The notes under the pieces are model-generated. The model worked only from the letters and a program-made list of their open reading frames with translations. It ran no database searches and had not been told where the DNA came from. The position numbers and the translations under genes were made by a program. A stretch of 64,000 nucleotides of DNA from Fulvivirga sp. M361. Lineage in GTDB: Bacteria > Bacteroidota > Bacteroidia > Cytophagales > Cyclobacteriaceae. The stretch lies in NCBI RefSeq assembly GCF_007097395.1, contig NZ_VKDC01000006.1, positions 458,073 to 522,072 on the forward strand. Direction: 5' to 3'. Shown here in pieces: positions 4,929 through 41,979 of this stretch (position 1 is the first letter of the stretch; each line of letters opens with the position of its first letter).

Positions 4929-4945
4929 TGTAAAATCTTTAAAAT

Positions 4946-7900
4946 CTAAAATGTTACTTCCAAACCCAACTGATAGGATCTTCTCATAAAACCGTACCCC
5001 CAGGTGTTCCTGTGGGCATTTTCCGGATCCCAACCCTCATATTCAGTAAATATGAAAGGGTTCTCTACCGTAGTATAAATTCTTAGCCTGCTCATTTTTA
5101 ACTTTTCCAGCAATTGCTTTGGCAAACGATATCCCAATGTGATATACCCTACCTTAATAAAGTTAACATCTGTCCTGTAGTGGGTCAGGTTATTAAAATC
5201 ACCGAATCCTGGCATAGCGTATTCCCCGTTGGGGTTTTCCGGTGTCCAGTAATCAGCATTTAAACCATTAAAACGGGCGGGAAAAGGTCCGTGAATCGCC
5301 TGGTCGAATACAAACTTGCTGTGAAATTCGCTACGAAGCATCTGCGTTTTACGGGTATAAGCAAAAACGGACAGGTCAAAATTCTTGTATTTAAACCGAT
5401 TGGTAATTCCACCATGCCAGTCAGGATCCGGAGACCCCAAAACCACGCGATCATTGTCGGCATCAATCGTACCGTCATCATTCTGATCCACCACTTTTAC
5501 CTGCCCTGGCCTTTGACCATACTCCTCGGCTTCGATAGCTTCAGACTCTTGCCATATGCCTGCCACCTCGTAGTCATAGTAGACCGATACCGGTTTTCCT
5601 ATAAACCATCGGTTGCCGATATCATCTTTTCCGTCACCAAATAATTCAAGTAGTTCATTTCTATTTCGGGAATAGGTAATGGTAGCGGTCCAGGTAAAAG
5701 CAGGGGTTTGTATCGGTGACAGGTTTAAACCTAGTTCAACCCCTTTGTTTTCTATTTTCCCGATATTTGACCTGGTAAATTCGAACCCTGAAATTCTGGG
5801 TATCTGGCGGTTTAAAATAATACCATCTACCTTTTTGTTATAAAGTTCCAGGCTACCGGAAATTCTGTTCTCAAATATTCCGAAATCAACACCAAAGTTC
5901 ACTTCCTTTCCAATTTCCCATGTCAATTCATCATTGCTAATGGAACCGATCTGGGAGCTACCTACCACCTCTTGACCAAAAGCAAATGATGCGTTATCAA
6001 TTCTGGCTCCTGAACTATAGGGTGAAACATTATTGTTTCCTGTTTCTCCGTAACTAATTCTGAATTTAAGATTGGATAAAAAAGAGAGATTATCCTTGAT
6101 CACTTCTTCTTCGCTGGCCTTCCAGGCGAATGCCGCCGAAGGGAAGAAATGCCATTTGTTATCTTTAGCCAGTTTTGATGAGCCGTCATAACGGCCTGAG
6201 GCAGTCAGCAGGTATTTGCCCTTGTAGTTGTATTGTATTCGGGCTGCATAGGAGGCTAAGGTCTCCTGTATAAAGTCGGATCTGATCTCACGAAGTTCAA
6301 GCCCGTTGCCTGTATTGTAGAATTGAGCTCTGTCATCCTCAAAGTTTCTGACCTGACTTATTCCTTCATCTTGCCTCTTGTACCATATGGAGGAGATCAG
6401 GGTGGCCGATACATGATGTTCGTTTGTAATATTCCTTTGATAATCAATGATATTGTCAAAGGAGTACTGTAAACGGTTAAAGGAATTATAATAAGCCCTT
6501 GTTCTTTGCGACTGCCCCCTGGAGCTCTTCGAATAACGCCCTCTGTACTCCCCGTATCTATTAAATTCGGTTTCGGGGGAGAAGCTCATCTTATAACTCA
6601 AACCCTCCAACGGGCTTACTTTTAAATATAGGTTGCCGAATGTCCGGTTGGTGCGTCTTTCGCGGGTAATATTATCAGCTTCAAAAAGCGGATTGGAAAT
6701 TTGCTGTTCTCGTTCAGTAGGCCAGAATTGCAATTCTCCGTTTTCATCGTAGGGATCTGCTGTGGGTCTCAGGCGGTAAGCATTTCTCATCGCTTCGAAA
6801 CTATCCTCATCCCGTACAGAATAGGATGCATAGATCTTAAATCCGATGTCAAACAGGTCATTGATCTTTTTATCTACACTGGCACGAAGGTTATATCGTT
6901 CGTATTTTTCATCTCCGACGATACCCTCATCTGAGGTGTAAGCGCCTCCAAAACTATAATTCATACCATTATCACCCCCGGAAAAAGACAAGGAGTGATT
7001 GGTCTTGACACCAAAATCATCCACCAACAGATCTACCCAATCCGTATAATTGCCGGTACGGATGTTTTCCAGCTCGTCGGCCCCAAAAATCCTATCCAGG
7101 GTCCAGTCTGCTCTATCTGACCCCACAGCTGCATCAAAAGCATACTCTATAAATTCCTCTCCGGTCATCATATCCGGTAGATTCATAGCCTCGCTTATAC
7201 TGGTAAATCCTTTATACTCAACCTTTGCCCTTCCGGGTGTACCTTTTTTAGTAGAAACAATCACCACTCCGTTGGCACCTCTGGAGCCGTAAATGGCTGT
7301 AGCTGATGCATCTTTTAATACGTCGATCTTTTCAATGTCAGCCGGATTGAGATCATCTATGTTATCCACAAAAATGCCGTCAACCACAAATAAAGGCTGA
7401 GGTGCGGTCTGATTATCGTCATCAAAATTGAATACAGCGTTTACCCCTCGGATCTGAATTTCCAGGCCTCCTCCCGGTTTATTATTAGCGCGTATAATAT
7501 CCACACCGGCCATTTTCCCCTGCATGGCTCCCATAGCGGTTACATTAGGTGTTTCAGCAATATTCTCCGCATTCATAGACTGAACGGCACCTGTTAAATC
7601 AGATTTTTTCGAGGTGCCATACCCAATTACTACTACCTCTTCCAGCGAAGTAATATCCGGTGTCATCACCACGTCAAAAACGGACTGATTTCCCACCACA
7701 ATTTCTTCTGCATGATATCCCAGGTAGCTGAATACTAAAACAGTCCGGGCGCCGGATACATCCATGACAAACGCACCATTGACATCAGTAATCGTGCCCT
7801 GGGTGGTTTCTTTGATCAAGACGGCCACTCCTGGTAACCCCGAACCGGTTTCATCTTTCACAGTACCGGTTATTCGTCTGGTAGTAGTATCCTGAGCCTT

Positions 7901-8002
7901 CAGTGCAGTGGAGAAAAAACCAAATAAAAACACACAACCTAACAAGAGCCATTTCATTCCACTGATGAGATCTCCTTTTTTTAAACTGTAGTTGTTTTTC
8001 AT
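4946..8002 (-). CDS. SusC-family TonB-dependent glycan transporter
   Basis: Outer-membrane 22-strand barrel that imports oligosaccharides captured by SusD, energised by TonB. A 1018-residue protein with a signal peptide ending ALKAQ (residue 37), a carboxypeptidase-regulatory-like domain (about 42-115), the SusC signature LEEVVVIGYGT (120-130), then plug and barrel, ending ..LGLEVTF. There is no STN signalling domain. It is first in the operon SusC-SusD-PKD. A promoter and paired operator repeats at 8192-8259 give it its own transcription start with a leader of roughly 185 nt (inferred), and the same layout precedes the GH92 operon. Confidence 0.95.
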   Translation of the reverse strand: MKNNYSLKKGDLISGMKWLLLGCVFLFGFFSTALKAQDTTTRRITGTVKDETGSGLPGVAVLIKETTQGTITDVNGAFVMDVSGARTVLVFSYLGYHAEEIVVGNQSVFDVVMTPDITSLEEVVVIGYGTSKKSDLTGAVQSMNAENIAETPNVTAMGAMQGKMAGVDIIRANNKPGGGLEIQIRGVNAVFNFDDDNQTAPQPLFVVDGIFVDNIDDLNPADIEKIDVLKDASATAIYGSRGANGVVIVSTKKGTPGRAKVEYKGFTSISEAMNLPDMMTGEEFIEYAFDAAVGSDRADWTLDRIFGADELENIRTGNYTDWVDLLVDDFGVKTNHSLSFSGGDNGMNYSFGGAYTSDEGIVGDEKYERYNLRASVDKKINDLFDIGFKIYASYSVRDEDSFEAMRNAYRLRPTADPYDENGELQFWPTEREQQISNPLFEADNITRERRTNRTFGNLYLKVSPLEGLSYKMSFSPETEFNRYGEYRGRYSKSSRGQSQRTRAYYNSFNRLQYSFDNIIDYQRNITNEHHVSATLISSIWYKRQDEGISQVRNFEDDRAQFYNTGNGLELREIRSDFIQETLASYAARIQYNYKGKYLLTASGRYDGSSKLAKDNKWHFFPSAAFAWKASEEEVIKDNLSFLSNLKFRISYGETGNNNVSPYSSGARIDNASFAFGQEVVGSSQIGSISNDELTWEIGKEVNFGVDFGIFENRISGSLELYNKKVDGIILNRQIPRISGFEFTRSNIGKIENKGVELGLNLSPIQTPAFTWTATITYSRNRNELLELFGDGKDDIGNRWFIGKPVSVYYDYEVAGIWQESEAIEAEEYGQRPGQVKVVDQNDDGTIDADNDRVVLGSPDPDWHGGITNRFKYKNFDLSVFAYTRKTQMLRSEFHSKFVFDQAIHGPFPARFNGLNADYWTPENPNGEYAMPGFGDFNNLTHYRTDVNFIKVGYITLGYRLPKQLLEKLKMSRLRIYTTVENPFIFTEYEGWDPENAHRNTWGYGFMRRSYQLGLEVTF

Positions 8003-8191: not shown

Positions 8192-8199
8192 CAAACTTA
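8192..8199 (-). promoter_or_regulatory. Promoter -7 element for SusC operon
   Basis: On the minus strand this reads TAAGTTTG, an exact match to the Bacteroidota -7 consensus TAnnTTTG. A T-run, TCTTTTTTAAT, lies just upstream and the direct repeats lie 27 bp upstream. The equivalent element of the GH92 operon (18433-18440) has the same surroundings, which makes chance unlikely. Confidence 0.7.
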
Positions 8200-8225
8200 T
8201 TTTTGGAGCATTAAAAAAGACTTAA

Positions 8226-8259
8226 TTTTCGCTTAACATAGACGTATATTTCGCCTAAT
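8226..8259 (-). promoter_or_regulatory. Tandem operator repeats upstream of SusC operon
   Basis: Two direct repeats, TTTTCGCTTAAC (8226-8237) and ATTTCGCCTAAT (8248-8259), lie 22 bp apart on the plus strand, on one face of the helix. The surrounding block 8210-8264 aligns without gaps to 18450-18507 upstream of the GH92 operon. It is probably the binding site of a shared activator, most simply the regulator at 18842-21406 (inference). The rest of 8003-8497, including 8281-8497, shows nothing else I can name. Confidence 0.7.
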
Positions 8260-8497: not shown

Positions 8498-11362
8498 CTA
8501 AAACCTATGAGATATGTATTTGTATTTTGAGGTAGCCGCCACCTGATTCAAATTTGTGTTGGGTAACTCAAATTGAATGATTTTTTCCTGTTTCGGTTGA
8601 AGCTCAAAATGCTGAGTTCCTTTTTGAATTCCATCAGCATACATCTTTATTTTACCTACATCGGTCAGAGTTCCCTCATTCTTTACCTTTACAAAAACCG
8701 ACATGCCTTCACCGTTTTGTTTGGTCACAAAGCGTTGAAATGTAAGGGTGAAATCTGCCATGAAAGACGAGTCATAGTTCAAGACACCGATAACACCATC
8801 CCGGGGCGTTCTAAACCCCACGCTATCTTTTATTCTGTCATGGGCGATAAAAGAAGGGCTGCGTCCGCCCACCATGATCTTAAATGTACCAGGTTCTACC
8901 ACCCGGTCCATTTGGTCATTCAACAGCGACAGCTGATAAGGTGTAAGTCGAAAAGTAACTTCTTTTGATTCACCGGCAGATAGTGTAATTCTCGTAAAAT
9001 CCTTTAACTCCATAATACGTGTCTTCACACTGGCATACATATCCGTTACATAAAGCTGTACCACTTCATCACCTGCCACTGTACCGGTATTGGTTATTTT
9101 TGCAATTACCGTGATCACGCCGTTCTTGTCTACCATTGTTTTCAAGTCCGAATAATTAAATTTGGTATAGCTCAAACCATACCCAAAAGAGTAAAGAGGA
9201 TAAAAATCCATATCGACATAGTGATATCCTCTTCCGGAGGTTTTAAAGTTATAATAAAGCGGTAATTGCCCTACATGACGAGGGAAAGTCATTGGCAAAC
9301 GACCGGCAGGGTTATAATCTCCAAATAAAACATCAGCCGTAGCCGGGCCTCCTTCCTGGCCGGGCAACCAGTTTACAAGAATAGCCTGGCAATGCTTTGA
9401 GGCATAGGTCAAATTATACGGGCGACCGGCCTGTAACACCAAAATAACAGGCTTTCCTGTTTTACAAATTGCCTGCAATAGTTTTTGCTGATCTCCCGAC
9501 AGTATGAGTGTAGCATGATCATTGCCTTCACCGGAAGTTTTCCTGGCTTCTTTGATAGATTCACTGGTGGAGCGATCTCCCAATACCAGTACTGTCACCT
9601 CTGATGCAAGGGCTGTCTTAACGGCACTTTCGATATCGGTTTCCCCAGATGAAACAAATGCACAACCTTTTGCATAGTTCACCTTTGTGCCTTTGCCTAC
9701 ACTTGATTTTATACCGGAAAGCACCGATTTCAATTGTCCCGGTTGCAGCTTAGCTGTATAGTCACCGGGCTGCAGGTCATCAGCTCCCGGACCGATAACA
9801 GCAATGGTATTGGCAGTTTTTGATAACGGAAGGATATCTTGCTTGTTTTCCAATAAAACCATTGATTCCAACGCAGCACGATGCGCTACCTTTTTATGTG
9901 CGGGACTATTCCATCCCGGGTAAATTTTGTTCCAGTCCAATGGCTCTGCACGGTTATAATCAAAAAAACCGTTTCTAAACATCATACGTAACATCCCCTG
10001 ACAAACACGATCAAGAGCCACTTGGTCCAGTTGTCCGTTTTTTGCCGCTTCAATAACTTTTTTATGGTTATAAGTATCACCGCAATTGGTAGCTACACCA
10101 GCTGCCAGTGATTGATTTGCGGCTTCCACATAGTCAATAGCTGTATAATGCTTTCGAGACATGAGGTTTCCTAAAGCACCACAATCACTGACGACGAATC
10201 CGTCAAATCCCCATTCTTCACGTAAAATACCCTGTAGCAATTCCTTACTTTTGGCTACTGGCACGCCTAAATAATCAGAATAAGATTCCATCACCGACTG
10301 GCACTTATATTTTTGTATTACGTGGCGGAAAGGAACCAGGTGTATTTCCCGCATTTCCCGCTCCGACAAGCCGATATCGTGTGAGTCCCTTCCTCCAAGT
10401 GGCGCCCCATGCGCGGCAAAGTGCTTTGGTGTTGCAAATAAATCCCGCGATTGAAAGCCTTTGATCCAGGCGCCTCCTATTTCCGACACCAGAGTAGGGT
10501 CTTCTCCATAGGTTTCTTCACAGCGCCCCCAACGGGCATCCTGCGCTACATCCAATACGGGCGACCAGGCTTGTACTGTTTTGGCGCTCACCGTTTCATC
10601 AGCAATGACACCGGCTACTTCTTCGATTAGTTTTTTGTTCCAGGTGGCCCCCAGTCCAATGGATTGAGGAAAAATAGTGGCGCCGCTGCCATAGGAAAAA
10701 CCATGGATGGCTTCCACTTTATTCAAGAAGGGGACACCTAAGTGTGGAATACCCGGAATTCCCCACCCTTCCCGAAGCAGCTCCATTTTATCCTCAGGAG
10801 TCATGACATCCATCAGATTTTTCACCCTTTCTTCCAGCGGCATTTGAGGATTTAGCCACGGTCTTTCATGACCAGTTACATCGACTGGCTGACTGATTTC
10901 TTTCGTATATTCTAAGGCAATTTCATTGATGGAGATCGCTTTTTTGATTCTTCCTCCTAATAGCTGCACTTTTAAGTGTGCGCCGTATTTTGCCGGAAAG
11001 TTTAAAATAAAATCGGTATTGCCGCTCACATCGTAGGTTATTGACTCTCCCAGGTTCATCGGGTCATAGGTCACGAACAATCGTATCGAATTTTTTAATG
11101 TCGCCTTTGAGATTCCGATGATACGCAAAAGAACCTTATTTACATCTCCCGGTGTACTCAATGTAAATAGGAGGTGCTGATCTGTATCCAATTCTTTACC
11201 TCCCAGTTTCCATCCGGTACTCCTGTCTCCGTCAAATACCTTTCCTGCCTCCCGGGGATGAAGTGAAGCCGAAACAGAGGTGAAGTCATGGTTTTGTGCT
11301 AAAGAGGTAAAACTATTAAAAACCAGTAAGGTTGCGATTAATTTTAGTCTGAATGCTGTCAT
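8498..11362 (-). CDS. GH3 exo-acting beta-glycosidase, periplasmic
   Basis: Retaining exo-beta-glycosidase of family GH3 (beta-glucosidase, xylosidase and related activities); exact specificity is not decided by sequence. 954 residues: signal peptide ending SLAQ (about 22), an F5/8-type C jelly-roll-like region (about 25-155), the GH3 barrel beginning RPWLNPQMPLEERVKNLM with KHFAAHG and nucleophile Asp393 in VVSDCGAL, the alpha/beta sandwich with likely acid/base Glu612 in SGEGNDH, an Fn3-like domain, and an extra C-terminal beta domain of about 110 residues resembling CARDB. It lies 23 bp after the upstream GH2 gene and is last in the GH92-led operon. In this context it probably trims beta-linked glucose, xylose or another decorating sugar (inference). 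Confidence 0.92.
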   Translation of the reverse strand: MTAFRLKLIATLLVFNSFTSLAQNHDFTSVSASLHPREAGKVFDGDRSTGWKLGGKELDTDQHLLFTLSTPGDVNKVLLRIIGISKATLKNSIRLFVTYDPMNLGESITYDVSGNTDFILNFPAKYGAHLKVQLLGGRIKKAISINEIALEYTKEISQPVDVTGHERPWLNPQMPLEERVKNLMDVMTPEDKMELLREGWGIPGIPHLGVPFLNKVEAIHGFSYGSGATIFPQSIGLGATWNKKLIEEVAGVIADETVSAKTVQAWSPVLDVAQDARWGRCEETYGEDPTLVSEIGGAWIKGFQSRDLFATPKHFAAHGAPLGGRDSHDIGLSEREMREIHLVPFRHVIQKYKCQSVMESYSDYLGVPVAKSKELLQGILREEWGFDGFVVSDCGALGNLMSRKHYTAIDYVEAANQSLAAGVATNCGDTYNHKKVIEAAKNGQLDQVALDRVCQGMLRMMFRNGFFDYNRAEPLDWNKIYPGWNSPAHKKVAHRAALESMVLLENKQDILPLSKTANTIAVIGPGADDLQPGDYTAKLQPGQLKSVLSGIKSSVGKGTKVNYAKGCAFVSSGETDIESAVKTALASEVTVLVLGDRSTSESIKEARKTSGEGNDHATLILSGDQQKLLQAICKTGKPVILVLQAGRPYNLTYASKHCQAILVNWLPGQEGGPATADVLFGDYNPAGRLPMTFPRHVGQLPLYYNFKTSGRGYHYVDMDFYPLYSFGYGLSYTKFNYSDLKTMVDKNGVITVIAKITNTGTVAGDEVVQLYVTDMYASVKTRIMELKDFTRITLSAGESKEVTFRLTPYQLSLLNDQMDRVVEPGTFKIMVGGRSPSFIAHDRIKDSVGFRTPRDGVIGVLNYDSSFMADFTLTFQRFVTKQNGEGMSVFVKVKNEGTLTDVGKIKMYADGIQKGTQHFELQPKQEKIIQFELPNTNLNQVAATSKYKYISHRF

Positions 11363-11385: not shown

Positions 11386-14300
11386 TTATTGACCGACGGA
11401 TGAATTCAACTTGCTCATAAAATCCTGGTCATTAGAAGTTAATTGAATCTTTGTTTTCCAATGGCGGACATCCTTTTCACAGGAAAGTTTTATAAGTACA
11501 TGATTCCATCCTTTTTCTAAAGGGAGGTTTTCAAACTTTTCATGTTCCACAGGTCTTTCGGAAGAACACAATACCCCGTTGACAGATACCTTTACTTGTT
11601 GGCTGCCTTCTACCAGCAGATCTAACTTCGGCATGTCTGGCTCAACCAATAGATTTACCAACGAACGTGGACTATGCAACCAGAAACTGAGGTATACCGT
11701 GTCCTTCTCACGCCTCAGACCTTTTAACTTTCCAATATCCAAAAAGCCCCTTGCATTCGTCTTGATCATTTCAGGTTTACGCTTTGATTCATATAGCTGA
11801 CTGAACTGTTCGTTTGTCATTTTTTCTATGGCTGTGGCTGAAATGTCGGATTCCCGCAAAACCAAAGCACGCTCCAGTTCAGCTTCGGCAGACAATGCCT
11901 GCTGGTTTCTTACGGGTACATTCCTTAACGAGATGCCCAGGTTTTTCAATAAGGTTTTCTGTAACTCTTCCCCTTCTCCCTTAAGGGCCAACAGATCAAG
12001 CGTGCTTAAATATATTTGTCCATTTCCACTGTTTATCCTGATCATGGCGGCGCCATCCGTTTTGGATTCCAGCTCACTTCGATACACCGCAGCAGTTTTT
12101 AAATACTCAGGCCTGGAGTTCCATGTGCTCCAATCCGTATTACAGGCTTCCAGTAGAACATTGCCTTTTTCGACCATTTCACCACTAAGCCCATACTTCA
12201 TTACCGGTTTCTGTATCCATTCCGTAAAATAGAAATCTTTGTTATTCAGCATGCCCAACATAGTATCATCAGTTTTTACAATAAAAGAAGTTGCCTTTCT
12301 GTCAGTTAACTTCAATGGGTATGGCAATATGTGGTTCAGTTTTTCTATACTCTGTGGGGTAACATTCCAGACCAGTACTTTACCCCCATGAGCCAGGCAA
12401 TTATCAATGATCTTAAAGTCAGTCTGGTCGAGAGTAGGTGCCGTTCCATCGATAACGATCATTTTCAATTCCTTTCCGGAAACAGCTTTTACGAATGGAA
12501 CACCCAGGTTTGCCCACTGATCTTTCAACAGAGGGCTGTTACCTGGTAGGATGCCTACGGTATGGACAGAAGCCTCCGGTATTGGGGTTTTCTCTAAGGG
12601 AGCATCGCTATGAATATTAAATGCTTTCATTGGGCTGGAATTGGCTGCCTGCACCGCATCAAACAGTGGCCAGGGTTTATACAGAGGCAAGTCAACATCA
12701 TAACCGGGGTTAATGGTGCTTGTATAAGGGCCAATGCGTTCGGGCTGGACGCCAGGGATACCTTCTTTGAATTCGGGGAAGAAAATACCATCTTCAGGTA
12801 GGGGAGGGCGAGTAGTATCGGGTAGTCCGAATGCCAGAGGTTTAAGTCCGTACCAGATTATATTGAACACACTACTATAGGTGGCACCGTATTTTTGCTG
12901 TAGTTGAATGAGATTGTAGGCTTCAATAGCCAGGCCTTCCATGCGTCCCAGCTGTGATTCGTAAGCCCGGTTGCCATTGATCTTGGATACCTGTCTCGGT
13001 GTCCCGTAATATCCCATACCGGTCTCACCGACCCCCCATGGTTTGCCTTGAGACGACCAGTTTTTCATAGAATTTTCATCACCATAATGGCCGATCACCG
13101 TAGGAAGAGTGGTAGGGCGTGATGTCTCACCATCCCCGGATATCCAGGCACGTGTAGGATCCAATGCTCTGACAATATTCACCCAATTGTTGATCTCGTC
13201 GATCTGACGTTGAACAATATTTTCAGGCGCATGAAAAACATGCAGAGCTACCGGAAGAGTTTCATTGCACACACTCCATCCAAATATTGAAGGATGGTTC
13301 CGGTCACGCATTACCAGGCTTTTTACATGTTCCCGGCAGTAATCCCAATAATCGTCCGAATCCATTTTCGGACCACCATCGCTGGACCAAATGCCGGTTT
13401 CATCGAGCACACAGATCCCCATTTCATCAGCTACGTCCAGGTAAAAAGACGGAAAGGGCTGGGCGTGCAAACGCACGGCATTGGCATGAGCATCTTTCAA
13501 CATTCTGAACCACCCCCAGGCATAACGACGTGTCATTTGAGGGATCCCCATAAAATGCCAGGAATCTCCCTTCAGCACAATAGGTGCTCCATTCAAAAGC
13601 AGTTGTGTACCCTCCATGGTAAACTGGCGCCAGCCAAAACGAGTATAACAGACATCTATTGCTTTCGTTTTAGAGGTCTGTAAACGAACGACAGCCCCAT
13701 AAAGGTTGGGTGCGTCAGGAGTCCAGTTTTTCAACTTACCGGCTACTTTCGTATGAAGCTTCACCGTAATACTTTCGCCGGCCTGCAGCTTTACTTTACC
13801 TGAACCTTCCATTTGCAAAACTTCTTCCCTCAAAATACCGTTGTCTGCTGGGGCTATGTTTACATGCTGTGATGCAGGTTTTTCCCAGCCTCTTACAGCA
13901 GCTTGTATGGTAAATGTCCGGAGCTTCTTTGTATTGTTTTCAATACTAACCGCCAATGTTAATTGATCCTTTTGTACATCCGGCTGTACGAAGACATCAG
14001 AAATAGAGAGCTTAGGCAGTGCAATCAGGGAAACATCCTGCCAGATCCCGGCAATGTGTTGCCCCCAAAATGAGCCGGCCACGTAGTTACGCCGTCCGTA
14101 TTTGCCTTGTTCATCTGTAAGGCTGGCCTTTGCGATACCCACAAGCAGTTCATTTTTTCCATTTTTCAGAAAAGGGGTAGCATCTATTTCTGTAGGAAAA
14201 AATATATCAAGGTTTTCCCCCGCCAGTTGGCCATTTATATAGATCTTGGCAAAACCGGCAATGGCTTCAAAGTGTAGTTTGATCTGTTTGTTATCCCAGC

Positions 14301-14685
14301 TTTTGGGTAGCATAAATTCTTTTTTCATCCAACCCATAGCTGCTTTTTCCCAGGCTTTCGGATAAGAAGGGTAAGTCAGAAAATCACCACCGTTACCTTC
14401 GGCAAAGGAATTTACATTCCACGGAGAAGGTACTTTTAACGGAATGGCATCCCAATCAAAAGATCCGGGTTTTTGGAAGAGGCTGATATCTTTCGTATAG
14501 ACCGGCATAAACTGCCACCTGCCATTTAAACTTAGTTCTTCACGAAATGGCTTCTCCACTTCACTCACCATGCCTTTCATAGGGTTAAAGACATGATCAT
14601 AAATCTGTTGTGCGGACGTTTTTCCATATATAAGAAAAAACACTAAAAGGGAAACACAACGGAAAAATTGCGCGCTTTTCAACAT
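11386..14685 (-). CDS. Large GH2-family glycosidase with GATase-like C-terminal domain
   Basis: 1099-residue exported protein (signal peptide ending TSAQ). It has the GH2 order: sugar-binding jelly roll (about 50-225, LNGRWQF, GIWQDVSL), Ig-like domain, and TIM barrel with acid/base Glu475 in GWSVCNE and nucleophile Glu554 in GVGETGMGYYG. Residues about 750-930 look like a glutamine-amidotransferase/trimerisation fold (LKMIVIDGTAP, GGKVLVWNV), and a C-terminal beta domain follows. The motifs differ from those of the beta-mannosidase at the window start, so the two GH2 enzymes probably cut different linkages; beta-galactosidase, beta-glucuronidase or another activity are all possible. It is third in the operon, 73 bp after the GH71/99-like gene and 23 bp before GH3. 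Confidence 0.88.
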   Translation of the reverse strand: MLKSAQFFRCVSLLVFFLIYGKTSAQQIYDHVFNPMKGMVSEVEKPFREELSLNGRWQFMPVYTKDISLFQKPGSFDWDAIPLKVPSPWNVNSFAEGNGGDFLTYPSYPKAWEKAAMGWMKKEFMLPKSWDNKQIKLHFEAIAGFAKIYINGQLAGENLDIFFPTEIDATPFLKNGKNELLVGIAKASLTDEQGKYGRRNYVAGSFWGQHIAGIWQDVSLIALPKLSISDVFVQPDVQKDQLTLAVSIENNTKKLRTFTIQAAVRGWEKPASQHVNIAPADNGILREEVLQMEGSGKVKLQAGESITVKLHTKVAGKLKNWTPDAPNLYGAVVRLQTSKTKAIDVCYTRFGWRQFTMEGTQLLLNGAPIVLKGDSWHFMGIPQMTRRYAWGWFRMLKDAHANAVRLHAQPFPSFYLDVADEMGICVLDETGIWSSDGGPKMDSDDYWDYCREHVKSLVMRDRNHPSIFGWSVCNETLPVALHVFHAPENIVQRQIDEINNWVNIVRALDPTRAWISGDGETSRPTTLPTVIGHYGDENSMKNWSSQGKPWGVGETGMGYYGTPRQVSKINGNRAYESQLGRMEGLAIEAYNLIQLQQKYGATYSSVFNIIWYGLKPLAFGLPDTTRPPLPEDGIFFPEFKEGIPGVQPERIGPYTSTINPGYDVDLPLYKPWPLFDAVQAANSSPMKAFNIHSDAPLEKTPIPEASVHTVGILPGNSPLLKDQWANLGVPFVKAVSGKELKMIVIDGTAPTLDQTDFKIIDNCLAHGGKVLVWNVTPQSIEKLNHILPYPLKLTDRKATSFIVKTDDTMLGMLNNKDFYFTEWIQKPVMKYGLSGEMVEKGNVLLEACNTDWSTWNSRPEYLKTAAVYRSELESKTDGAAMIRINSGNGQIYLSTLDLLALKGEGEELQKTLLKNLGISLRNVPVRNQQALSAEAELERALVLRESDISATAIEKMTNEQFSQLYESKRKPEMIKTNARGFLDIGKLKGLRREKDTVYLSFWLHSPRSLVNLLVEPDMPKLDLLVEGSQQVKVSVNGVLCSSERPVEHEKFENLPLEKGWNHVLIKLSCEKDVRHWKTKIQLTSNDQDFMSKLNSSVGQ

Positions 14686-14752: not shown

Positions 14753-14767
14753 AAACGATTATCGTTT
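14753..14767. repeat. 15-bp palindrome over a stop codon
   Basis: AAACGATTATCGTTT is a perfect 7-1-7 palindrome covering the stop codon of the GH71/99-like gene, 67 bp before the next operon gene. It could be an operator or a short mRNA structure. The match is certain; the function is unknown. Confidence 0.4.
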
Positions 14768-16042
14768 GGGTTTGACAGTACTAAAAGAATCGTCTCCGTG
14801 AAACCACCGCGTACCTTGCCCGGTAAGCCACAGATAATAGTCTGTCTGCAAGTCATCTTCTATGCCTATAAATTTGCGATTCCCATGGTCCGGCGTATCA
14901 CGTTGATTCACTGATTTGAAAATCGCAGTTCCCTCATCCACCTCATCAAACATGGCCACATACAATGATTTAGCTCCCGAAAGTTTTGCCCCGGCAATTT
15001 GTTTCCACAGAAAATCCCCATGGTTACGTGGGGCTATAGTATACTTACCAGGATCATTTTTTAGGTTACCCCAGCTGAAGCCAGGAAACACCAGAGGGAC
15101 ATAATCAACATTATTGGTTTTACACCACTGAATATCGCCGGCCAGGACTTCTTTTGCGATGTTATAACTCTCTGAATTGTAGCGACCTACTGCCCAGGGC
15201 ATCACAATATCACAACGCTTGATCAGGGAATGTAACGAAGGGTCATGCCGGGTGTCCTTATCCAGGGTTCTCCAGTAATAGGGCACACCTAACATCACCG
15301 ACACTCTATTTTCAGGGCCTTTAAGATCAGATACCAATTGTTGTATATCCGGAATAGCGTATTTGCGATTATCATTGAACCCTGCACCCCATACAGCCAA
15401 CAACGGGCGTCCATTGTGTCTCAGGTAGGTAGGATTTTCCTGATGATTGAAAAGGTCAAATTGCTTTTGTAATTCATCCCAATCTTGCAGCAAAAAGACC
15501 ATATCTTTACCTGATGTGCCACTCAGATCGTACATGATGCAAAGGGCTCTTTCATATTTCTTAGCAGCTTTGAGAGCATTTTTAAGCACTTTGTTAAAAT
15601 GCCGTTTCCCTTTGGGGTCTTTTATTTCCCCTACAAACCGTTGCATAAAAACCCCGTCAATTCCGTAGGTTTTCATCCATTTAAAGTGCAGGTCAACACT
15701 CTCTTCATCGTAAGGGCTGTATAAATAGGCATTGGATCCATCCGCATGTTTGAATGGTGTCACATACTTTTTAGTATATTCAGAAACGTCAGGCCAAAAA
15801 TCGATGGTTGAACAGCCAGAGTCAAACCCACAGGCCCCTCCATAGTGATACCAGCCTCTTCCGGAATCATCGCCTTCTGCGGCAAACCAACCCTGGTAGC
15901 CTGCCATGATCAGGTTTTCATAGGCAGTATATAGCAACCCCGTTTCGTCGTACGTAGAGCCCTGGCTGTTTTCTTCACCAGCAGAACAGCTTAAAAGCAG
16001 TAGGGGCAGGGATAATAGAAAATATGGATTTACTTTGTACAT
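14759..16042 (-). CDS. GH71/99-like glycoside hydrolase lipoprotein
   Basis: 427-residue lipoprotein (signal ending LLLLSC, Cys19). After a short linker the protein forms one TIM-barrel-like domain of the kind annotated GH71/99-like: MAGYQGWFAAEGDDSGRGWYHYG, the HFKWMKTYGIDGVFMQRFVGE strand, and near the end VAMFDEVDEGTAIFK. The last motif occupies the place of FNEWHEGTQI in GH99 endo-alpha-mannosidases, whose catalytic carboxylates lie there, so the Asp/Glu residues of DEVDE are the likely catalytic groups. GH99 enzymes cut internally in alpha-mannans and N-glycan arms, which would fit the neighbouring GH92 enzyme, but the subfamily here is distinct and its substrate is inferred. It lies 41 bp after GH92 in the same operon. 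Confidence 0.82.
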   Translation of the reverse strand: MYKVNPYFLLSLPLLLLSCSAGEENSQGSTYDETGLLYTAYENLIMAGYQGWFAAEGDDSGRGWYHYGGACGFDSGCSTIDFWPDVSEYTKKYVTPFKHADGSNAYLYSPYDEESVDLHFKWMKTYGIDGVFMQRFVGEIKDPKGKRHFNKVLKNALKAAKKYERALCIMYDLSGTSGKDMVFLLQDWDELQKQFDLFNHQENPTYLRHNGRPLLAVWGAGFNDNRKYAIPDIQQLVSDLKGPENRVSVMLGVPYYWRTLDKDTRHDPSLHSLIKRCDIVMPWAVGRYNSESYNIAKEVLAGDIQWCKTNNVDYVPLVFPGFSWGNLKNDPGKYTIAPRNHGDFLWKQIAGAKLSGAKSLYVAMFDEVDEGTAIFKSVNQRDTPDHGNRKFIGIEDDLQTDYYLWLTGQGTRWFHGDDSFSTVKPKR

Positions 16043-16083: not shown

Positions 16084-18405
16084 TTATCTCGGGTGTACAT
16101 CATGTAGCAGGGGAGACTTGGTACCCCATTGTTTATTGGGAGTATCCCCCATAATGAAAGACAACTCACCACCGGACACGATCTCCTCATGGCTAAAGAA
16201 TGGTTGCTCTAAATCTCTCCCGTTCAATGTTACAGACTGAATGTATTTATTCTCCTTCGAATTGTTTGCTGCTTTAATTTTAAATGTTTTTCCCTCTTTA
16301 AGATGAAGGGTGACCTCATCAAAAAGCGGACGTCCGATGGAATATTGATCCGAACCAGGCAGAAAAGAATAAAAACCCATGGCATTGAGGATGTACCAGG
16401 CAGACATTTGTCCGCAGTCTTCATTACCCGGTAACCCATTAGGGTCATTGAAATAAAGTGATTGTAAGATTTGATCTACACGTTCCTGAACTTTCCAGGG
16501 CTGACCTACCTGGTTATAAATATGTGTTGTGTGATGTCCCGGTTCATTCCCATGTGCATATTGCCCGATCAGGCCTGAGATATCTGCAGAGACATTTCTT
16601 CCTTCCAGAGAAGAATCCATAGAAAATAGTGAATCTAATTTAGTGATAAGCTTTTCCCTGCCTCCCATCAAACCAGCCAGGCCCTGGATGTCTTGAGGGA
16701 CAAACCAAAGCCATTGCCATGCATTGCCTTCACAATAATCATCACTCCGGTGATTGGAAGCTTTAGGGTTAAAAGGAGTGCGCCAGGAACCATTCAGTAA
16801 TTTACCCCGCATAAACCCGCTTTCAGGATCATAATAGTTTTCATAATGCTTACTTAGGGTGAAAAATTTTTCAGAGTCTTCTTTTTTACCAAGCATCCCG
16901 GCAAACCGGGCAATACACCAGTCATTATAGGCATATTCAAGTCCTCTGGCCACTGACTCATTTTCCTTATCGGAAGGAATGTAACCCAAGCTGTTTTTAT
17001 AATGTTTGGCTGCAGGCATTAGCTTATGGTGTAAAATACTGCTGTGCATAACCTTCGTGATACCGGAAGTATCATATGAAGAAGCATGCACGCAAGCTTC
17101 ATACGCTTTTTCAACATCAAAATCCCGGATACCTTTTGCATATGCGTCAACGATCACCGGAACGGCATGATAACCAATCATGGTGCCGGTATAGTTAGAG
17201 GATAGTTCCCACTTGGGTAAAACGCCACCCTTGTCATACTTATCGATTAAAGACCTGACCATGTCCTTGGCCCGTTCCGGATCAATGATCGTCAGTAAGG
17301 GATGAAGGGCCCTGAAAGTATCCCACAATGAAAATACCGTATAATTGGTATGTTGTTCAGAGGTATAGATCTGATGATCCATCGCCCGATACCTGTTATC
17401 TACATCTTCAAAGAGATTAGGAGAAATGGAAGCATGATATAAAGAGGTATAGAAAATCGTCTTTTGTTGCTTATTATCTGTTTTTACGTCAATTTTTCCC
17501 AACTGGTGGTTCCAGGTAGATTTTGCTTTCTGCCTGATCCGGTTAAAATCCCAATCGGGTATTTCACTTTTCAAATTCTTTTCAGCACCGGCATAGTCAA
17601 CGCTCGATATCCCCACCTTTGCCAGGACCGTTGGCTGATTTTTAGTGTCAAAATGCAAAAGGACCTGGACATTTTTACCCGTAAGCTTTTTTTGATTCGG
17701 AGAAGGCGGGGTGTTGGTAGTAAAAGTATGACGGAAAGGTTGAGAAAACTCAGCGTAAAAATATACAAACTGATCTTTCGCCCAACCGGAAGTACGTTTT
17801 AACCCTCTGATGGTGTTGTTTCCTATAACTTCTATTAGCAGATCTTCATTTTTTTGGTGGTGCAGGTGATGTGTAAGGTCTATCAAAAGCGCGGCTTCTT
17901 TATCTTCGGGATATATATATTTGTGAAATCCGGCTCTTTTCGTGGCCGTAAGTGCTACATCGATATTATAATCATCCAGGTGCACCTGGTAATAACCCGG
18001 GCTTGCCGTCTCATTTTTATGGGAGAATTTTGAACCAAAACTGACCGGCTGGGTACCTGGGGCTGCATGCTTGTCATCAGTAGGGAAAGTGAAGGGCATA
18101 AACAAGATATCCCCATAATCACCTATACCAGTCCCACTTAAATGGGTATGGCTAAAACCAAGAATTGTATCATCGCTATAATGATAACCCGCACAGGCGT
18201 CCCACCCGGTGAGACGCGTATCAGGACTCAACTGAACCATACCATAAGGCAATGTAGCACCCGGAAAAGTATGACCGTGGCCTCCTGTTCCTATAAATGT
18301 ATTGACAAATGGAGTATAATCAACAACGCTTTCCTCCGAATTTTTAGTTGTACAACTCAACCCTAAGACCAGACTCATCCAGACTAAATTCCGGCAAATT
18401 TTCAT
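16084..18405 (-). CDS. GH92 exo-alpha-mannosidase lipoprotein
   Basis: Calcium-dependent inverting alpha-mannosidase that trims alpha-linked mannose. The start is placed at the ATG at 18405 (773 residues): MKICRNL.. opens a lipoprotein signal ending VLGLSC (Cys18), while the longer start at 18435 would reach into the promoter. The N-terminal beta-sandwich begins DYTPFVNTFIGTGGHGHTFPGA; the helical barrel carries YCEGNAWQW with the probable acid Glu559, GNEPGHH, and GNEDCGQMSAWY with the base-activating carboxylate near Asp663. All are family hallmarks. First gene of the operon GH92 - GH71/99-like - GH2 - GH3, with a predicted leader of only about 20 nt. Confidence 0.95.
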   Translation of the reverse strand: MKICRNLVWMSLVLGLSCTTKNSEESVVDYTPFVNTFIGTGGHGHTFPGATLPYGMVQLSPDTRLTGWDACAGYHYSDDTILGFSHTHLSGTGIGDYGDILFMPFTFPTDDKHAAPGTQPVSFGSKFSHKNETASPGYYQVHLDDYNIDVALTATKRAGFHKYIYPEDKEAALLIDLTHHLHHQKNEDLLIEVIGNNTIRGLKRTSGWAKDQFVYFYAEFSQPFRHTFTTNTPPSPNQKKLTGKNVQVLLHFDTKNQPTVLAKVGISSVDYAGAEKNLKSEIPDWDFNRIRQKAKSTWNHQLGKIDVKTDNKQQKTIFYTSLYHASISPNLFEDVDNRYRAMDHQIYTSEQHTNYTVFSLWDTFRALHPLLTIIDPERAKDMVRSLIDKYDKGGVLPKWELSSNYTGTMIGYHAVPVIVDAYAKGIRDFDVEKAYEACVHASSYDTSGITKVMHSSILHHKLMPAAKHYKNSLGYIPSDKENESVARGLEYAYNDWCIARFAGMLGKKEDSEKFFTLSKHYENYYDPESGFMRGKLLNGSWRTPFNPKASNHRSDDYCEGNAWQWLWFVPQDIQGLAGLMGGREKLITKLDSLFSMDSSLEGRNVSADISGLIGQYAHGNEPGHHTTHIYNQVGQPWKVQERVDQILQSLYFNDPNGLPGNEDCGQMSAWYILNAMGFYSFLPGSDQYSIGRPLFDEVTLHLKEGKTFKIKAANNSKENKYIQSVTLNGRDLEQPFFSHEEIVSGGELSFIMGDTPNKQWGTKSPLLHDVHPR

Positions 18406-18432: not shown

Positions 18433-18440
18433 CAAACATA
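18433..18440 (-). promoter_or_regulatory. Promoter -7 element for GH92 operon
   Basis: The minus strand reads TATGTTTG, an exact TAnnTTTG match, with the start codon 28 bp downstream. A run of T on the minus strand (18453-18460) and the operator repeats precede it, as at the SusC promoter. Confidence 0.75.
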
Positions 18441-18467
18441 GGCCGGACCCTATTAAAAAAGAGTTAA

Positions 18468-18501
18468 TATTTGATTAACGAAAGCCTGTTTTTCGCTTAA
18501 C
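18468..18501 (-). promoter_or_regulatory. Tandem operator repeats upstream of GH92 operon
   Basis: Direct repeats TATTTGATTAAC (18468-18479) and TTTTCGCTTAAC (18490-18501), 22 bp apart. The second copy is identical to the promoter-proximal repeat at the SusC operon (8226-8237). The repeats start 28 bp from the -7 element (27 at SusC) and replace a recognisable -33 box, as expected for an activator-dependent promoter. They sit in the divergent region facing the regulator gene at 18842. The remaining bases 18510-18841 hold no other clear signal, although the regulator's own promoter must be there. Confidence 0.75.
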
Positions 18502-18841: not shown

Positions 18842-21406
18842 ATGAAAATGAAGGTACCTTTCCTGCTTATCTTATTTTTTATCTCTGATGCTGTCAGGGC
18901 CCAGGACGCACTTTGGTCAGGACTTTACTTTTCTTCGTACGAAGTTATTAAAGACAAACGCACTTCACTTAACCTTACAGCAGATGAGGCTTTTGATCTT
19001 TCCAATGGGTTTACCTTAACATTTGATGCAAACTTTAGGTCGGGTGATGGCTATTACGGCTATGTATTCCGCATGATCGATACAAAAAATAATATTGACC
19101 TGGTTTCCAATCTGGGTGCGGATTCCGTTAATTTTTGGTTGATATTAAAAGACACCACACTTATTTCATATCAGTGGAAAGATATTCCTAATGGTGGATT
19201 TGATCAATGGATGAAAGTTGAATTTCATGTTGACCCTCACAATGCGCAAATTTCTCTTTCGCTCAATAATCATAAACAAGTAAAGACATTCGATGGTCAG
19301 TTGGACCTGTCTCATCTCAATATCGTTTTTGGAGCTTGTAATTATACCTCATTTCTCAACTCAGATGTGGCCCCTATGACGTTGAAAGACGTCCGCTTAT
19401 ACGATGACAAACAAAAACTCTACAGACATTGGAAATTGTACAGGCATGGAGAGCAGAATGTTTATGATGAGGTGGCTCATGCTCCGGCAGAGGTGTTGAA
19501 CCCTTCTTGGTTGATTGACAGGCACACCCAATGGCGTCATCGGAAAAGAATAATGTTCAATAACTTAATTGGTGTAGCACAAAATAAGGCCACTGGAGAG
19601 ATCTTTTTTGCAGATGATGAGGTTTTATACAGCTATTCCACCGATTCCGATAAGTTAGATACGCTCAAATACCTGGGTGGAACACCCTTCCATTGTCTAA
19701 ACAATCATATTTTTTATTATGCCTATTCCAACGAACTCTGGTCCTATGACTTTAATAAGAACTATGTAAACAGGTTTGATTTTGCCTCTCGAAAATGGTC
19801 TGAATCGGATACCAGTTGTGCTGAGCCTGATTTATGGCATCATAACAGGTTTATTTCACCATACGACTCCTCTTTGATCACTTTTGGTGGATACGGCCAT
19901 TACACTTATAAAAGTATATTTAACCGTTTTCATCCTCAAAAAGAACTATGGGAAAAGCTTGATGTCAGTAAAAAAATCTCTCCCAGATACTTAAGCGGCA
20001 TAGGATTTCTTGATAAAAGTAATGTTTTGATTTTCGGTGGGTATGGAAGTAAATCGGGGAGGCAGGAACTTTCACCTGAATTCTACTACGACTTGTATAC
20101 TGTTGATATTGAAAAACTGTCTGTTGATAAACGCTGGTCTGCTAAAAACACTTCAGGTTTTGTGCCTTGTAACGATCTGCTCTTTGATTCGACCTCGGGA
20201 AAATTTCTAACATTATTGTACAACAGTAATTATTTTGATACTTCCCTCAAGCTTGTCAGCTTTGGGCTTGATGCTCCTGAAAAACAGGTATTTGGAGATT
20301 CCATACCCTATAAATTTCTCGATACAAAATCCTGGTGTAATCTCTATATGAATAAAACAAAATCAGAACTGATCGCTGTTACGGTCTACAACTCCGAGAT
20401 GAACCTTTATTCGTTAGCCTGCCCGCCTTTATTAGCCAGGGAGGTTTACCAGGAGGGAAATTTGCTTAATTCCAGGTCAAAGCTTTGGATCCTGATCTCC
20501 CTGTCATCAATAACTATACTTATGTTATCCATATTTTGGAACAGGAGGAAAAAGAAGAGAACAGCGCTTTCATCACCCTCTCAAACAACTCCTGTAGCCA
20601 GTTATGACGTAGCTTTTAATTCACAAAAACCAGCAGAAGATCAAAAACGGTCAGCTTTCTATTTGTTTGCAGGATTCCAGGTCTTTGATAAATCAGGGCA
20701 GGTTATTACCAGTCATTTTACTCCTACACTGAAAGAATTATTTCTGCTGATATTCCTGAATTCTTTTAAAAACGGGAAAGGAGTATCCTCTCAAATACTC
20801 AATGAAACACTATGGTTTGATAAATCAGGAGATAGTGCCCGGAACAATCGAAATGTGAATATGAGTAAACTCAGGCCACTACTGGAAGGCGTTGGTTGTA
20901 TTGAATTGTCAAAGGAGGGTACATTCTGGAAAATCAACCTCCAACAGGAGTTGTACTGCGATTACATTGAGGTCATGTATTTACTCAAAAAAATACAACA
21001 ATCAACAGAATTACCGGTTAATGAAATTCATAGAGTCATTGCAATCGCTTCCGTAGGAAAATTGCTCCCTGATGTTCAAAATGAATGGATAGATGTATTC
21101 AAGGAAGACTTTTCAAACCTGCTCATTGAAGTATTTCTTTTGCTGGCCGAGCGTATCTATGAAAAGGAACCTGACTATGATCTGCTTTATTCTATGGCTA
21201 AATGTCTGCTAAAACATGACAGCATAAACGATGAAGCTATAGCCATCAAATGTTCGGCCCTTTACAATTCCGGGAAAAAAGGACAAGCTAAGCATGCGTA
21301 CGATTCGTTTTGCCTGGAATATAGAAATTTAATGGGAACAGATTTTGATATTTCTTTTCAGGAATTACTTAAAAGGTTAGATGCCAGGTGGTCTCTACTC
21401 TCTTAG
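18842..21406 (+). CDS. Transmembrane LamG/Kelch sensor fused to SARP-type regulator
   Basis: Predicted one-component membrane-bound transcription factor of 854 residues. Signal peptide ends VRAQ (about 21). Residues about 45-205 resemble a LamG/concanavalin fold, and about 235-530 a Kelch-type propeller with LITFGGYG and VLIFGGYG blades. One membrane helix, LWILISLSSITILMLSIFW (about 547-565), is followed by basic RRKKKR, so the N-terminal part faces the periplasm. The cytoplasmic part has a SARP-like winged helix (about 602-695: LFAGFQVFDKSG, ARNNRNVNMSKLRPLLE) and a BTAD/TPR region (about 700-850: CLLKHDSINDEA, GKKGQAKHAYDSF). It is divergent from the GH92 operon, so it probably senses a glycan and activates both mannose-locus operons (inference). 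It has no histidine kinase or phospho-receiver domain, unlike a hybrid two-component sensor. Confidence 0.82.
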   Translation: MKMKVPFLLILFFISDAVRAQDALWSGLYFSSYEVIKDKRTSLNLTADEAFDLSNGFTLTFDANFRSGDGYYGYVFRMIDTKNNIDLVSNLGADSVNFWLILKDTTLISYQWKDIPNGGFDQWMKVEFHVDPHNAQISLSLNNHKQVKTFDGQLDLSHLNIVFGACNYTSFLNSDVAPMTLKDVRLYDDKQKLYRHWKLYRHGEQNVYDEVAHAPAEVLNPSWLIDRHTQWRHRKRIMFNNLIGVAQNKATGEIFFADDEVLYSYSTDSDKLDTLKYLGGTPFHCLNNHIFYYAYSNELWSYDFNKNYVNRFDFASRKWSESDTSCAEPDLWHHNRFISPYDSSLITFGGYGHYTYKSIFNRFHPQKELWEKLDVSKKISPRYLSGIGFLDKSNVLIFGGYGSKSGRQELSPEFYYDLYTVDIEKLSVDKRWSAKNTSGFVPCNDLLFDSTSGKFLTLLYNSNYFDTSLKLVSFGLDAPEKQVFGDSIPYKFLDTKSWCNLYMNKTKSELIAVTVYNSEMNLYSLACPPLLAREVYQEGNLLNSRSKLWILISLSSITILMLSIFWNRRKKKRTALSSPSQTTPVASYDVAFNSQKPAEDQKRSAFYLFAGFQVFDKSGQVITSHFTPTLKELFLLIFLNSFKNGKGVSSQILNETLWFDKSGDSARNNRNVNMSKLRPLLEGVGCIELSKEGTFWKINLQQELYCDYIEVMYLLKKIQQSTELPVNEIHRVIAIASVGKLLPDVQNEWIDVFKEDFSNLLIEVFLLLAERIYEKEPDYDLLYSMAKCLLKHDSINDEAIAIKCSALYNSGKKGQAKHAYDSFCLEYRNLMGTDFDISFQELLKRLDARWSLLS

Positions 21407-21525: not shown

Positions 21526-23199
21526 TTATTCGATGACGAATCTTATTTCCTTTTCTGCTGCCAGCAGGTAATAAACACCGGACCGTAAGGTTTCCACCTC
21601 TAGTTGTGCCTGCCCTTTGTATACATCGATAGTTACGCTCAATACTTTTTTGCCTGAAGGATCAAGGATAGATAATGACTGATGGCCCTCTTGCAACCCC
21701 TGAATATGCAATACGCCTTCTGTAGGGTTTGGATATATGGACACCCCGCTCATATCAAAAGGGTCAGAAGAAGTTTTGTAATCAGCGATTCGGATGTTCA
21801 TAGCTCCTTTCCTTGTCAGTATCACTTTATCAAGGTTCCACTGCCAGTCTGCGCTTCCTCCGGTCAATCGAATGATGTGGTTACCTGCTGTAAAATTAGC
21901 GGTTTGACCGGCGGTTTGGTTTTGATAGGTACTCCAACTTCCGGTGTTGGGTAGTGTGGTGGTGAAAAACGGGGTCCCTGAAACTGAAAACTGAACGGTA
22001 CGATTGTCAGCAGGAGTAGCATATTGATAAACTACCTCATAAGCCCCATCTTCGGGGATGACCACATTGTAATCCATCCAATCACCCCCATTCACATAAT
22101 TGATGATGTTACCCGCTTTGTTCGCTCCTAAAGGTACTACTCCATCGTGGTAGGTGCCTCCTGTGGCACCAAAACTTTCTGCTTCAATGATTAAGGAGGA
22201 ACCAGGACCGCCTGGAGAGTCTACAGGTTTGTATACACGGATCCAATCTACGGTGAAATTATGGTTGTCGAAGTTTGTGATCTCATCGTTGGTAGGTGTG
22301 CGACCCTGACAGGCGTTCCAATTCTGGTCTTCCATGTTGATAATAATGTCCATCTCTTTGTTAAGACCCGTTCTGTTATAGGCCTGGCGTGTTGGGGAGG
22401 TGATATTTAAAGGGTCAATTCCGTCCTTGCCATTTACGTTGTCCAGATTGTCCATGACCTTGACCAACTGACCGTCTACATAGTACTCCAGGTGAGTGGG
22501 ACTTTTCCAGTATACCCCGATACGATGCCATGCATCTGTCCAATAAGTTACGTCGCTTCTTGTGTACCACGTGCTGGCATCCCTGGGTTGGTAATCCAGG
22601 AAAGGGTTACGAATAAATACATGATGGCTTAAGTGCAATCGTCTTGACAGCCAGTCATTGCGCTGTGCTTTACCACCGTAAGCTTCCAAAATGTCAATTT
22701 CCTGGGTATCATCAGGGCTGAGTAGCCAGACATCCGAAGCCATAACAGCATTGGCAATTTTGACACGGGCTTCTACAAAGACAGGATATTTCACCCTTCT
22801 TGTAGAGGTAATACACCCGGCTCGGGTAGCGGGAAGGTTCCAGGTCTCTGAAGTTCCATCTCCATTACAATCCGCGTCAAATGATTTCATTTCTCCATTT
22901 GCCCGGGATGCCCAAATGTTTAGAACACCTCCGGATACCGCAGTGTGATCTCTTCTCCATATCGTAGGGCCGGGGCCTTCCCAAGAATTGTGATAGAAGT
23001 TGGTCCACTTATTACCAAATGTGGCAACATTTGAGGTAGGATTAAATGTGTAGTTAAAATTATCTGAAATGTCTGATTGGAGTTGCCATACTTTGCCGGC
23101 TCCGGCATTTGCGGGAACAGGTATTCCGTTCCAGTCTTGTGCTTTAACACCATTACTGAAATAAACGAGCACAAACGTTATATATATTATTTGTTTCAT
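21526..23199 (-). CDS. GH16 agarase-like enzyme with CBM6 and T9SS tail
   Basis: Secreted endo-acting beta-galactanase. 557 residues: signal peptide ending VKAQ (about 21); GH16 jelly roll (about 25-325) with catalytic EIDILE (Glu167 nucleophile, Asp169, Glu172 acid/base); DDTQ before it and RRLHLSHHVF after it are typical of beta-agarases and porphyranases. Next comes a CBM6-like domain (about 335-460: IEAESF, GGDWMDYNVVIPEDGAY, WQWNLDKVIL), then a T9SS type A sorting domain (about 485-557: VSIYPNPTEGVLHIQG). Agarase is the best guess; porphyran or carrageenan-like substrates are possible. It is a single gene with its own upstream operator and structured leader, so it is probably controlled separately from the mannose locus. 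Confidence 0.88.
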   Translation of the reverse strand: MKQIIYITFVLVYFSNGVKAQDWNGIPVPANAGAGKVWQLQSDISDNFNYTFNPTSNVATFGNKWTNFYHNSWEGPGPTIWRRDHTAVSGGVLNIWASRANGEMKSFDADCNGDGTSETWNLPATRAGCITSTRRVKYPVFVEARVKIANAVMASDVWLLSPDDTQEIDILEAYGGKAQRNDWLSRRLHLSHHVFIRNPFLDYQPRDASTWYTRSDVTYWTDAWHRIGVYWKSPTHLEYYVDGQLVKVMDNLDNVNGKDGIDPLNITSPTRQAYNRTGLNKEMDIIINMEDQNWNACQGRTPTNDEITNFDNHNFTVDWIRVYKPVDSPGGPGSSLIIEAESFGATGGTYHDGVVPLGANKAGNIINYVNGGDWMDYNVVIPEDGAYEVVYQYATPADNRTVQFSVSGTPFFTTTLPNTGSWSTYQNQTAGQTANFTAGNHIIRLTGGSADWQWNLDKVILTRKGAMNIRIADYKTSSDPFDMSGVSIYPNPTEGVLHIQGLQEGHQSLSILDPSGKKVLSVTIDVYKGQAQLEVETLRSGVYYLLAAEKEIRFVIE

Positions 23200-24475: not shown

Positions 24476-24504
24476 ATTATTTGGGTTTATGTTTAGAGTT
24501 ATGT

Positions 24505-24538
24505 GAAGATCCACCCCCTGGCCCCCGCCAGCGGGGGA
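24505..24538 (-). repeat. Right inverted repeat bracketing DUF559 gene
   Basis: Inverted partner of 24067-24100, in the 5' leader of the DUF559 gene, 30 bp upstream of its ATG. Core CTGGCCCCCGCCAGCGGGGG folds back on itself (CCCCC/GGGGG and TGGC/GCCA). The following 24539-24814 shows no gene or named signal. Confidence 0.7.
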
Positions 24539-36130: not shown

Positions 36131-36237
36131 GGTACTTTTATTAGGCAAAAGCACTCCACATAATTTTCTTCATAAAAAATATTCAGGCACAAAGTAGGTG
36201 CATGGTTCTCACTGTGTGTAACTATAATCAACGACCA

Positions 36238-41976: not shown

Positions 41977-41979
41977 GCT

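Follow-up and report, generated by a model that had tools for sequence, protein, structure and literature searches.

Results

The stretch of DNA analysed here, called the window in the following, comprises 64,000 nucleotides of Fulvivirga sp. M361 (contig NZ_VKDC01000006.1, positions 458,073 to 522,072). Its plus strand carries, at 18842..21406, a gene with an ATG start that encodes a regulator of 854 aa, and this open reading frame is present as given in a preliminary description made from the letters alone. In order and all on the plus strand, the protein comprises a signal peptide called by eye (residues 1-20, 18842..18901), a weakly assigned LamG-like or concanavalin-type region (residues 22-225, 18905..19516), a Kelch-repeat (beta-propeller) region recognised by Pfam and profile (residues 226-535, 19517..20446), a lone transmembrane (TM) helix placed by hydropathy (from residue 548, 20483..20539) and a SARP part, in which profiles locate an OmpR/SARP-type winged helix with the recognition-helix stretch SARNNRNVNMSKLR (20651..20941) and an all-helical activation (BTAD) region (20960..21328).

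The divergent neighbour of the regulator is a GH92 gene (16084..18405, minus strand), whose start is more likely the ATG at 18405 than the listed TTG at 18435; the latter falls within a predicted promoter box. Also on the minus strand are genes for a GH99-like protein below the Pfam cut-off (14759..16042), for GH2 (11386..14685), GH3 (8498..11362) and a SusC-like TonB-dependent transporter (4946..8002), and for a SusD-like protein (3336..5033), whose listed start overlaps SusC and whose true start is probably lower. A beta-mannosidase-like GH2 with an Ig_mannosidase domain is encoded at 48..2522 on the plus strand, and a GH16-like protein with CBM6 and a T9SS sorting tail is encoded convergently with the regulator (21526..23199, minus strand). 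GH92, GH99-like and beta-mannosidase-like GH2 proteins are enzymes of mannan and N-glycan degradation, and their combination suggests alpha-mannan or N-glycan as the substrate of the locus. A DUF559 gene (24116-24580) lies between the GH16 gene and a weak haloperoxidase-type match, and a single open frame of 3124 aa occupies 51312-60686. A second SusC/SusD pair (36202-43410) is located behind a FecR-type anti-sigma gene, so that PUL control of two different kinds may be present in the window.

Only one segment of the regulator, at residue 548, passed the hydropathy cut, and RRKKKR follows right behind it, which bears out the lone membrane helix of the preliminary description. Positively charged residues next to a membrane helix mark its cytoplasmic side (positive-inside rule). 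Given one helix with this basic stretch behind it, we expect the first ~530 residues in the periplasm and the last ~280 in the cytoplasm, as judged from hydropathy and charge. Neither Pfam nor NCBIfam matched a kinase or receiver domain in the regulator, in agreement with the proposed one-component layout free of both; the domains that would make it an HTCS were not found. For the ectodomain, the single sequence matched the Kelch family PF24681 (E 4e-10, residues 306-443) under the curated Pfam cut-off, and a profile of 29 proteins (A3) matched Kelch structures in the PDB with a best E of 3.8e-15, while the single sequence yielded chance-level matches only against NCBIfam and the PDB. Pfam gave no LamG match for the regulator alone. 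The N-terminal regions of 29 members weakly touched 15 Pfam families, with the lowest E for MAM (0.0019), Laminin_G_3 (0.017) and 3keto-disac_hyd (0.019), and with L-type lectin touched in 3 members; these four have concanavalin-like folds, most of the other touched families do not. Against the PDB, the N-terminal profile A5 gave a single chance-level match (E 1). A LamG-like N-terminal region is thus probable from sequence, and of the LamG/Kelch ectodomain proposed earlier the Kelch half stands, whereas LamG is weak for the regulator itself.

The cytoplasmic half required profiles, since single-sequence searches neither showed nor excluded a SARP: the regulator reached just BTAD at E 0.064, with winged-helix and BTAD scores both below cut-off, and the members of A4, the C-terminal part of A3 with 30 rows, touched Trans_reg_C in 8 and BTAD in 5 of 30 cases when scanned singly at E up to 1. 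As a profile, A4 matched 31 of 395 Bacteroidota genomes at E 0.001 or better, our own genome included. Beyond the regulator's own kind (to which L045 belongs, a protein in which Pfam matched nothing), 17 of the 19 next-best loci passed the BTAD cut-off. Among these 17 are TPR proteins resembling AfsR and two proteins that have a receiver domain; the two failing loci are L059, a beta-helix protein whose match is limited to the winged-helix part, and L064, a TPR-bearing sulfatase. Aligned by hhalign with nine BTAD proteins, which came from the same A4 profile and hence are no blind draw, A4 scored 99.7% over 234 columns, collinear across winged helix and BTAD. In the PDB it found three matches at E up to 10, the best at E 0.068; all were to the OmpR-type winged helix of SaeR, and all were confined to the winged-helix part of A4. 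The DNA-contact residues Q48, W74, P79, T88, R94 and K95 of AfsR are rated as highly conserved (PMC10936776). W658 is invariant in A4 and R678 common, at the same spacing as AfsR W74 and R94. Counting without gaps from W658 by the published residue numbers, which leaves Q48 unplaced, W74, R94 and S91 (as S675) are kept, while P79 corresponds to G663, R87 to N671, T88 to V672, R92 to K676 and K95 to P679. By this profile evidence, the assignment of the C-terminal half as winged helix plus BTAD, as first read from the sequence, is solid.

Relatives were found in 38 of 196 same-family genomes at E 1e-5 or better (own genome counted), mostly at full length. Our main set comprised 40 near-full-length same-family loci, with short-contig and some further matches left out, and was compared with 38 random 20-kb regions from 18 relative-bearing contigs (40 drawn, two dropped for overlap with true loci). 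Both ectodomain profiles matched 41 of 41 family proteins; the profiles were built on 29 relatives including most of the 41, so that this demonstrates a shared length and order and is not an independent find. Hydropathy placed a TM helix before the SARP part in 39 of 41, the exceptions being L068, which fell under the cut, and L086, in which a stray profile segment misplaced the SARP start. Within the 20-kb stretch, SusC/SusD genes occurred near 35/40 relatives vs 12/38 random regions (11/34 without four overlapping ones) and GH92 near 19/40 vs 1/38 (1/34); locus counts are not fully independent owing to shared genomes and close kin, e.g. L073-L075 and L087-L088. The closest clade, consisting of the window and L066-L080, had SusC (8) or GH92 (8) as divergent upstream neighbour in 16/16 cases, skipping one ORF under 150 aa where present. 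The gene context is conserved, the polysaccharide-locus setting of the preliminary description holds, and its order of ectodomain, TM helix and SARP recurs near SusC/SusD or GH92 in same-family relatives.

The 20 loci of a second set held C-terminal-only matches or came from other families or classes, although L146 turned out to be full-length. Here, SusC/SusD genes were near 3/20 loci (2/8 with both ectodomain profiles, 1/9 kelch-less) and GH92 near 1/20. The PUL link holds for the same-family Kelch relatives and not for every TM-SARP protein. Nine of the 20 proteins lacked both ectodomain profiles, and all nine carried Laminin_G_3 above cut-off before the TM helix; L162, scanned beside them, gave no Pfam match. 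These Laminin_G_3 kin lack the Kelch ectodomain, so that the TM-SARP output bears more than one ectodomain. One of the nine is a paralogue encoded in the window's own genome, of 833 aa, with the order Laminin_G_3-TM-SARP and no Kelch ectodomain (G000:C2:137428-138111; L147:7653-10151). A scan of viral contigs for relatives found none, and a scan of genome contigs found one, in Agaribacillus aureus.

With the DNA upstream of SusC and GH92 placed side by side, we spotted by eye, and then tested, three TTAA units at an exact period of 11 bp, with 15-16 bp from the start of the last unit to TAnnTTTG, the consensus of the Bacteroidota -7 box. The predicted GH92 operator-promoter (18433..18500, minus strand) has TTAAGCGAAA at 18500, TTAA units at 18478, 18467 and 18456 and the box TATGTTTG at 18440-18433. 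Its predicted SusC counterpart (8192..8258, minus strand) has TTAGGCGAAA at 8258, TTAA units at 8236, 8225 and 8214 and the box TAAGTTTG at 8199-8192. Both promoters carry TTARGCGAAA 22 bp upstream of the array, and at SusC this sequence also occurs at the first array unit. The array went unlisted by our repeat search because its units share few fixed bases. No TTG was found 15-28 bp ahead of the box at either promoter, and no triple repeat upstream of the window's other SusC at 38800. Repeat and box together occurred twice in the window and in none of 100 shuffles; with a slightly wider gap, the pattern had two matches in the 8.1-Mb genome, both in the mannan PUL, and none in the read-backwards control. 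As the pattern was written from the two window sites, the relatives are the real test.

Among these, the triple repeat was present in the regulator's upstream intergenic DNA at 11/16 clade loci, window included, and at 2/25 others (shuffle means 0.025 and 0.045), whereas 0/256 random intergenic gaps (60-1000 bp, both strands) had it, which upholds the direct-repeat operators of the preliminary description. It was likewise absent from 540 random 400-bp upstreams, many of them partly coding, and from 15 SusC upstreams in random loci, and other periods from 6 to 17 bp gave at most 1 match. The five clade loci without an exact triple repeat are L069, L070, L071, L072 and L079; relaxed matching, as a raw count, found arrays 1-2 bases off in three of them and none in L070 and L079. 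SusC promoters distant from the regulator also carry the triple repeat in the window, L073, L075 and L076, and it is absent before the L078 SusC and the second SusC of L070.

A genome scan with a TAnnTTTS box returned 12 sites in 9/15 regulator genomes (10 sites in 8/14 without our own genome) and none in the read-backwards control; 6/15 regulator genomes lack the full pattern. Regulator loci account for eight of the 12 sites, of which seven are no more than 5 kb away from the regulator and one, that of the window's SusC, is 10.6 kb away; the site in G127, also among the eight, is followed by a GH95 gene. Two further sites (G177 and G156) lie ~65 bp ahead of SusC-SusD operons; their contigs have no regulator match and extend over 70 kb to the nearer end, and the SusC encoded there is 79-83% identical to SusC in the regulator's locus of L076. 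Unlinked operons with such a SusC speak for action in trans. The remaining two sites are ahead of unrelated genes. Fifteen genomes without a regulator match gave one site, and 16 genomes whose regulators have other recognition helices gave one site, 2.8 kb from the regulator, vs three read-backwards matches. The helix class NNR[NS]VN and the repeat go together (13/17 vs 0/24, the class being chosen after viewing the data and the comparison ignoring kinship), and the operator is in this way linked to the regulator. No operator was found upstream of SusC in 12 second-clade loci, several of whose upstreams are incomplete; where the DNA sufficed, the stretch before SusC resembles, by eye, the end of another gene. 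Second-clade regulators with the helix KVKNSRGVT (L093, L100, L101, L103, L104) are convergent with a gene run holding GH92, and the L101 run, where scanned, includes glutaminase-A-like and DUF3823 genes.

Discussion

How does this regulator compare with known systems? Like SARPs of the AfsR, DnrI and EmbR type, it has an OmpR-type winged helix directly followed by BTAD. Unlike in that family, the module follows an ectodomain in the periplasm and a TM helix, and it occurs in Bacteroidota at carbohydrate loci; at E 0.01, Pfam matched neither Kelch nor LamG in the 17 other BTAD proteins from Bacteroidota. SARP operators are defined as direct repeats at 11 or 22 bp next to the promoter, and 11-bp repeats of this family lie over the -35/-33 zone close to the start box (PMC10936776); our candidate operators fit this definition by sequence pattern, being of 11 bp and promoter-adjacent. 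SusR of Bacteroides thetaiotaomicron is likewise a membrane protein with a periplasmic sensor and cytoplasmic C-terminal DNA binding that controls a PUL via direct-repeat operators (PMC3878776). However, 67 or 77 bp separate its predicted repeats, and its DNA-binding domain is described as having no significant similarity to other known transcription factors (PMC3878776), whereas we find a spacing of 11 bp and a SARP domain; the two domains are set apart here by SusR's published description. HTCS, too, are single proteins encoded in PULs that join a membrane sensor to cytoplasmic DNA binding (PMC3878776), but differ from the regulator, which has no kinase or receiver match and carries a SARP in place of AraC-type DNA binding.

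ToxR and CadC use an OmpR-like winged helix, with the DNA-binding domain at the N-terminus and the sensor at the C-terminus. They resemble the regulator as one-component membrane activators (PMC5430869), yet its domain order is reversed and it has a BTAD. A DNA-binding domain tethered to the membrane has precedents in both CadC/ToxR (PMC5430869) and SusR (PMC3878776).

We consider it likely that the protein crosses the inner membrane once and, as a one-component system, activates a mannan/N-glycan-type PUL by way of 11-bp repeats on which its SARP part acts. Judging by the gene context, the periplasmic LamG-like and Kelch ectodomain would respond to something that the locus generates, probably an oligosaccharide with mannose in it that SusC/SusD import. 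The bound ligand may then make the cytoplasmic SARP modules more prone to pair, and these would bind the 11-bp TTAA direct repeats over the -33 region just upstream of the TAnnTTTG box; in this way they would assist RNA polymerase at the promoters of SusC and GH92, as SARPs do around -35. If the box starts near -12, TTAA repeats two and three span about -39 to -17. In AfsR, the pair of 11-bp repeats covers positions -40 to -19, where the SARP dimer contacts sigma region 4 (PMC10936776); a comparable sigma contact may be made here. Given this AfsR-like geometry and the missing TTG before the box, we prefer an activator that stands in for a weak -33 element.

The repeats overlap the promoter and would suit a blocker as well as an activator, and a SARP-type membrane repressor might occupy the -33 region until glycan arrives. 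We regard this as unlikely, since promoters without a TTG 15-28 bp before the box suit dependence on an activator, and AfsR and the SARPs described alongside it are activators (PMC10936776). Another reading assigns the operator to a different regulator, with our protein controlling something else or hitch-hiking in the PUL as a decayed sensor. Binding of the protein to this DNA is itself an inference, and the repeat is missing from 5/16 clade loci. However, the operator lies in the shared divergent region at 11/16 loci and tracks both the presence of the regulator across genomes and its recognition-helix class, so that this reading, too, appears improbable to us. The C-terminus might even be a TPR-like scaffold without DNA binding on a glycan-binding membrane protein: no DNA-binding domain emerged at Pfam cut-offs, and the sulfatase with TPRs among the second-tier matches indicates that the profile signal is partly TPR-like. 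Against such a scaffold, which we deem highly implausible, stand the collinearity with SARPs over winged helix and BTAD, the three OmpR-type PDB matches on the winged-helix part alone and the invariant W658.

The SARP-type activator remains the preferred reading. As PUL regulators, PMC3878776 gives SusR-like proteins, HTCS and ECF, with no occurrence of SARP, and PUL control in PMC10766802 comprises HTCS, ECF and catabolite repression. The preliminary description knew of no functional account of this architecture, and we found none in the open-access literature, among the matches listed, for the order of ectodomain, TM and SARP, its PUL association or its operator; the parts are known, and it is their combination for which no account was found. 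Somewhat more speculatively, though we still lean towards it, membrane SARPs may form a separate class of Bacteroidota carbohydrate-locus regulators beside SusR, HTCS and ECF/anti-sigma systems. Such a class would have at least two ectodomain types (LamG-like plus Kelch, and an N-terminal part plus juxtamembrane Laminin_G_3) and one TM-SARP output, which would activate promoters via 11-bp repeats as actinobacterial SARPs do, but together with the -33/-7 sigma factor of Bacteroidota. If this is true, a single protein combines transmembrane sugar sensing with an output module so far met chiefly in antibiotic regulation, and Bacteroidota have an added class of polysaccharide-locus regulators that single-sequence Pfam scans miss and that arrives with a predicted operator and regulon, both directly testable.

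Other arrangements of membrane SARPs also occur. L162 and L163 are tandem TM-SARP genes with an overlap of a few bases; their products have 853 and 646 aa, and Kelch was not matched in the shorter one. In the Bacteroidota locus L050 (1-2190), the encoded protein has an N-terminal BTAD-type SARP, a strong hydrophobic segment (residue 326) and TPRs, and is, by its predicted domain order, a membrane SARP in the opposite, CadC-like arrangement.
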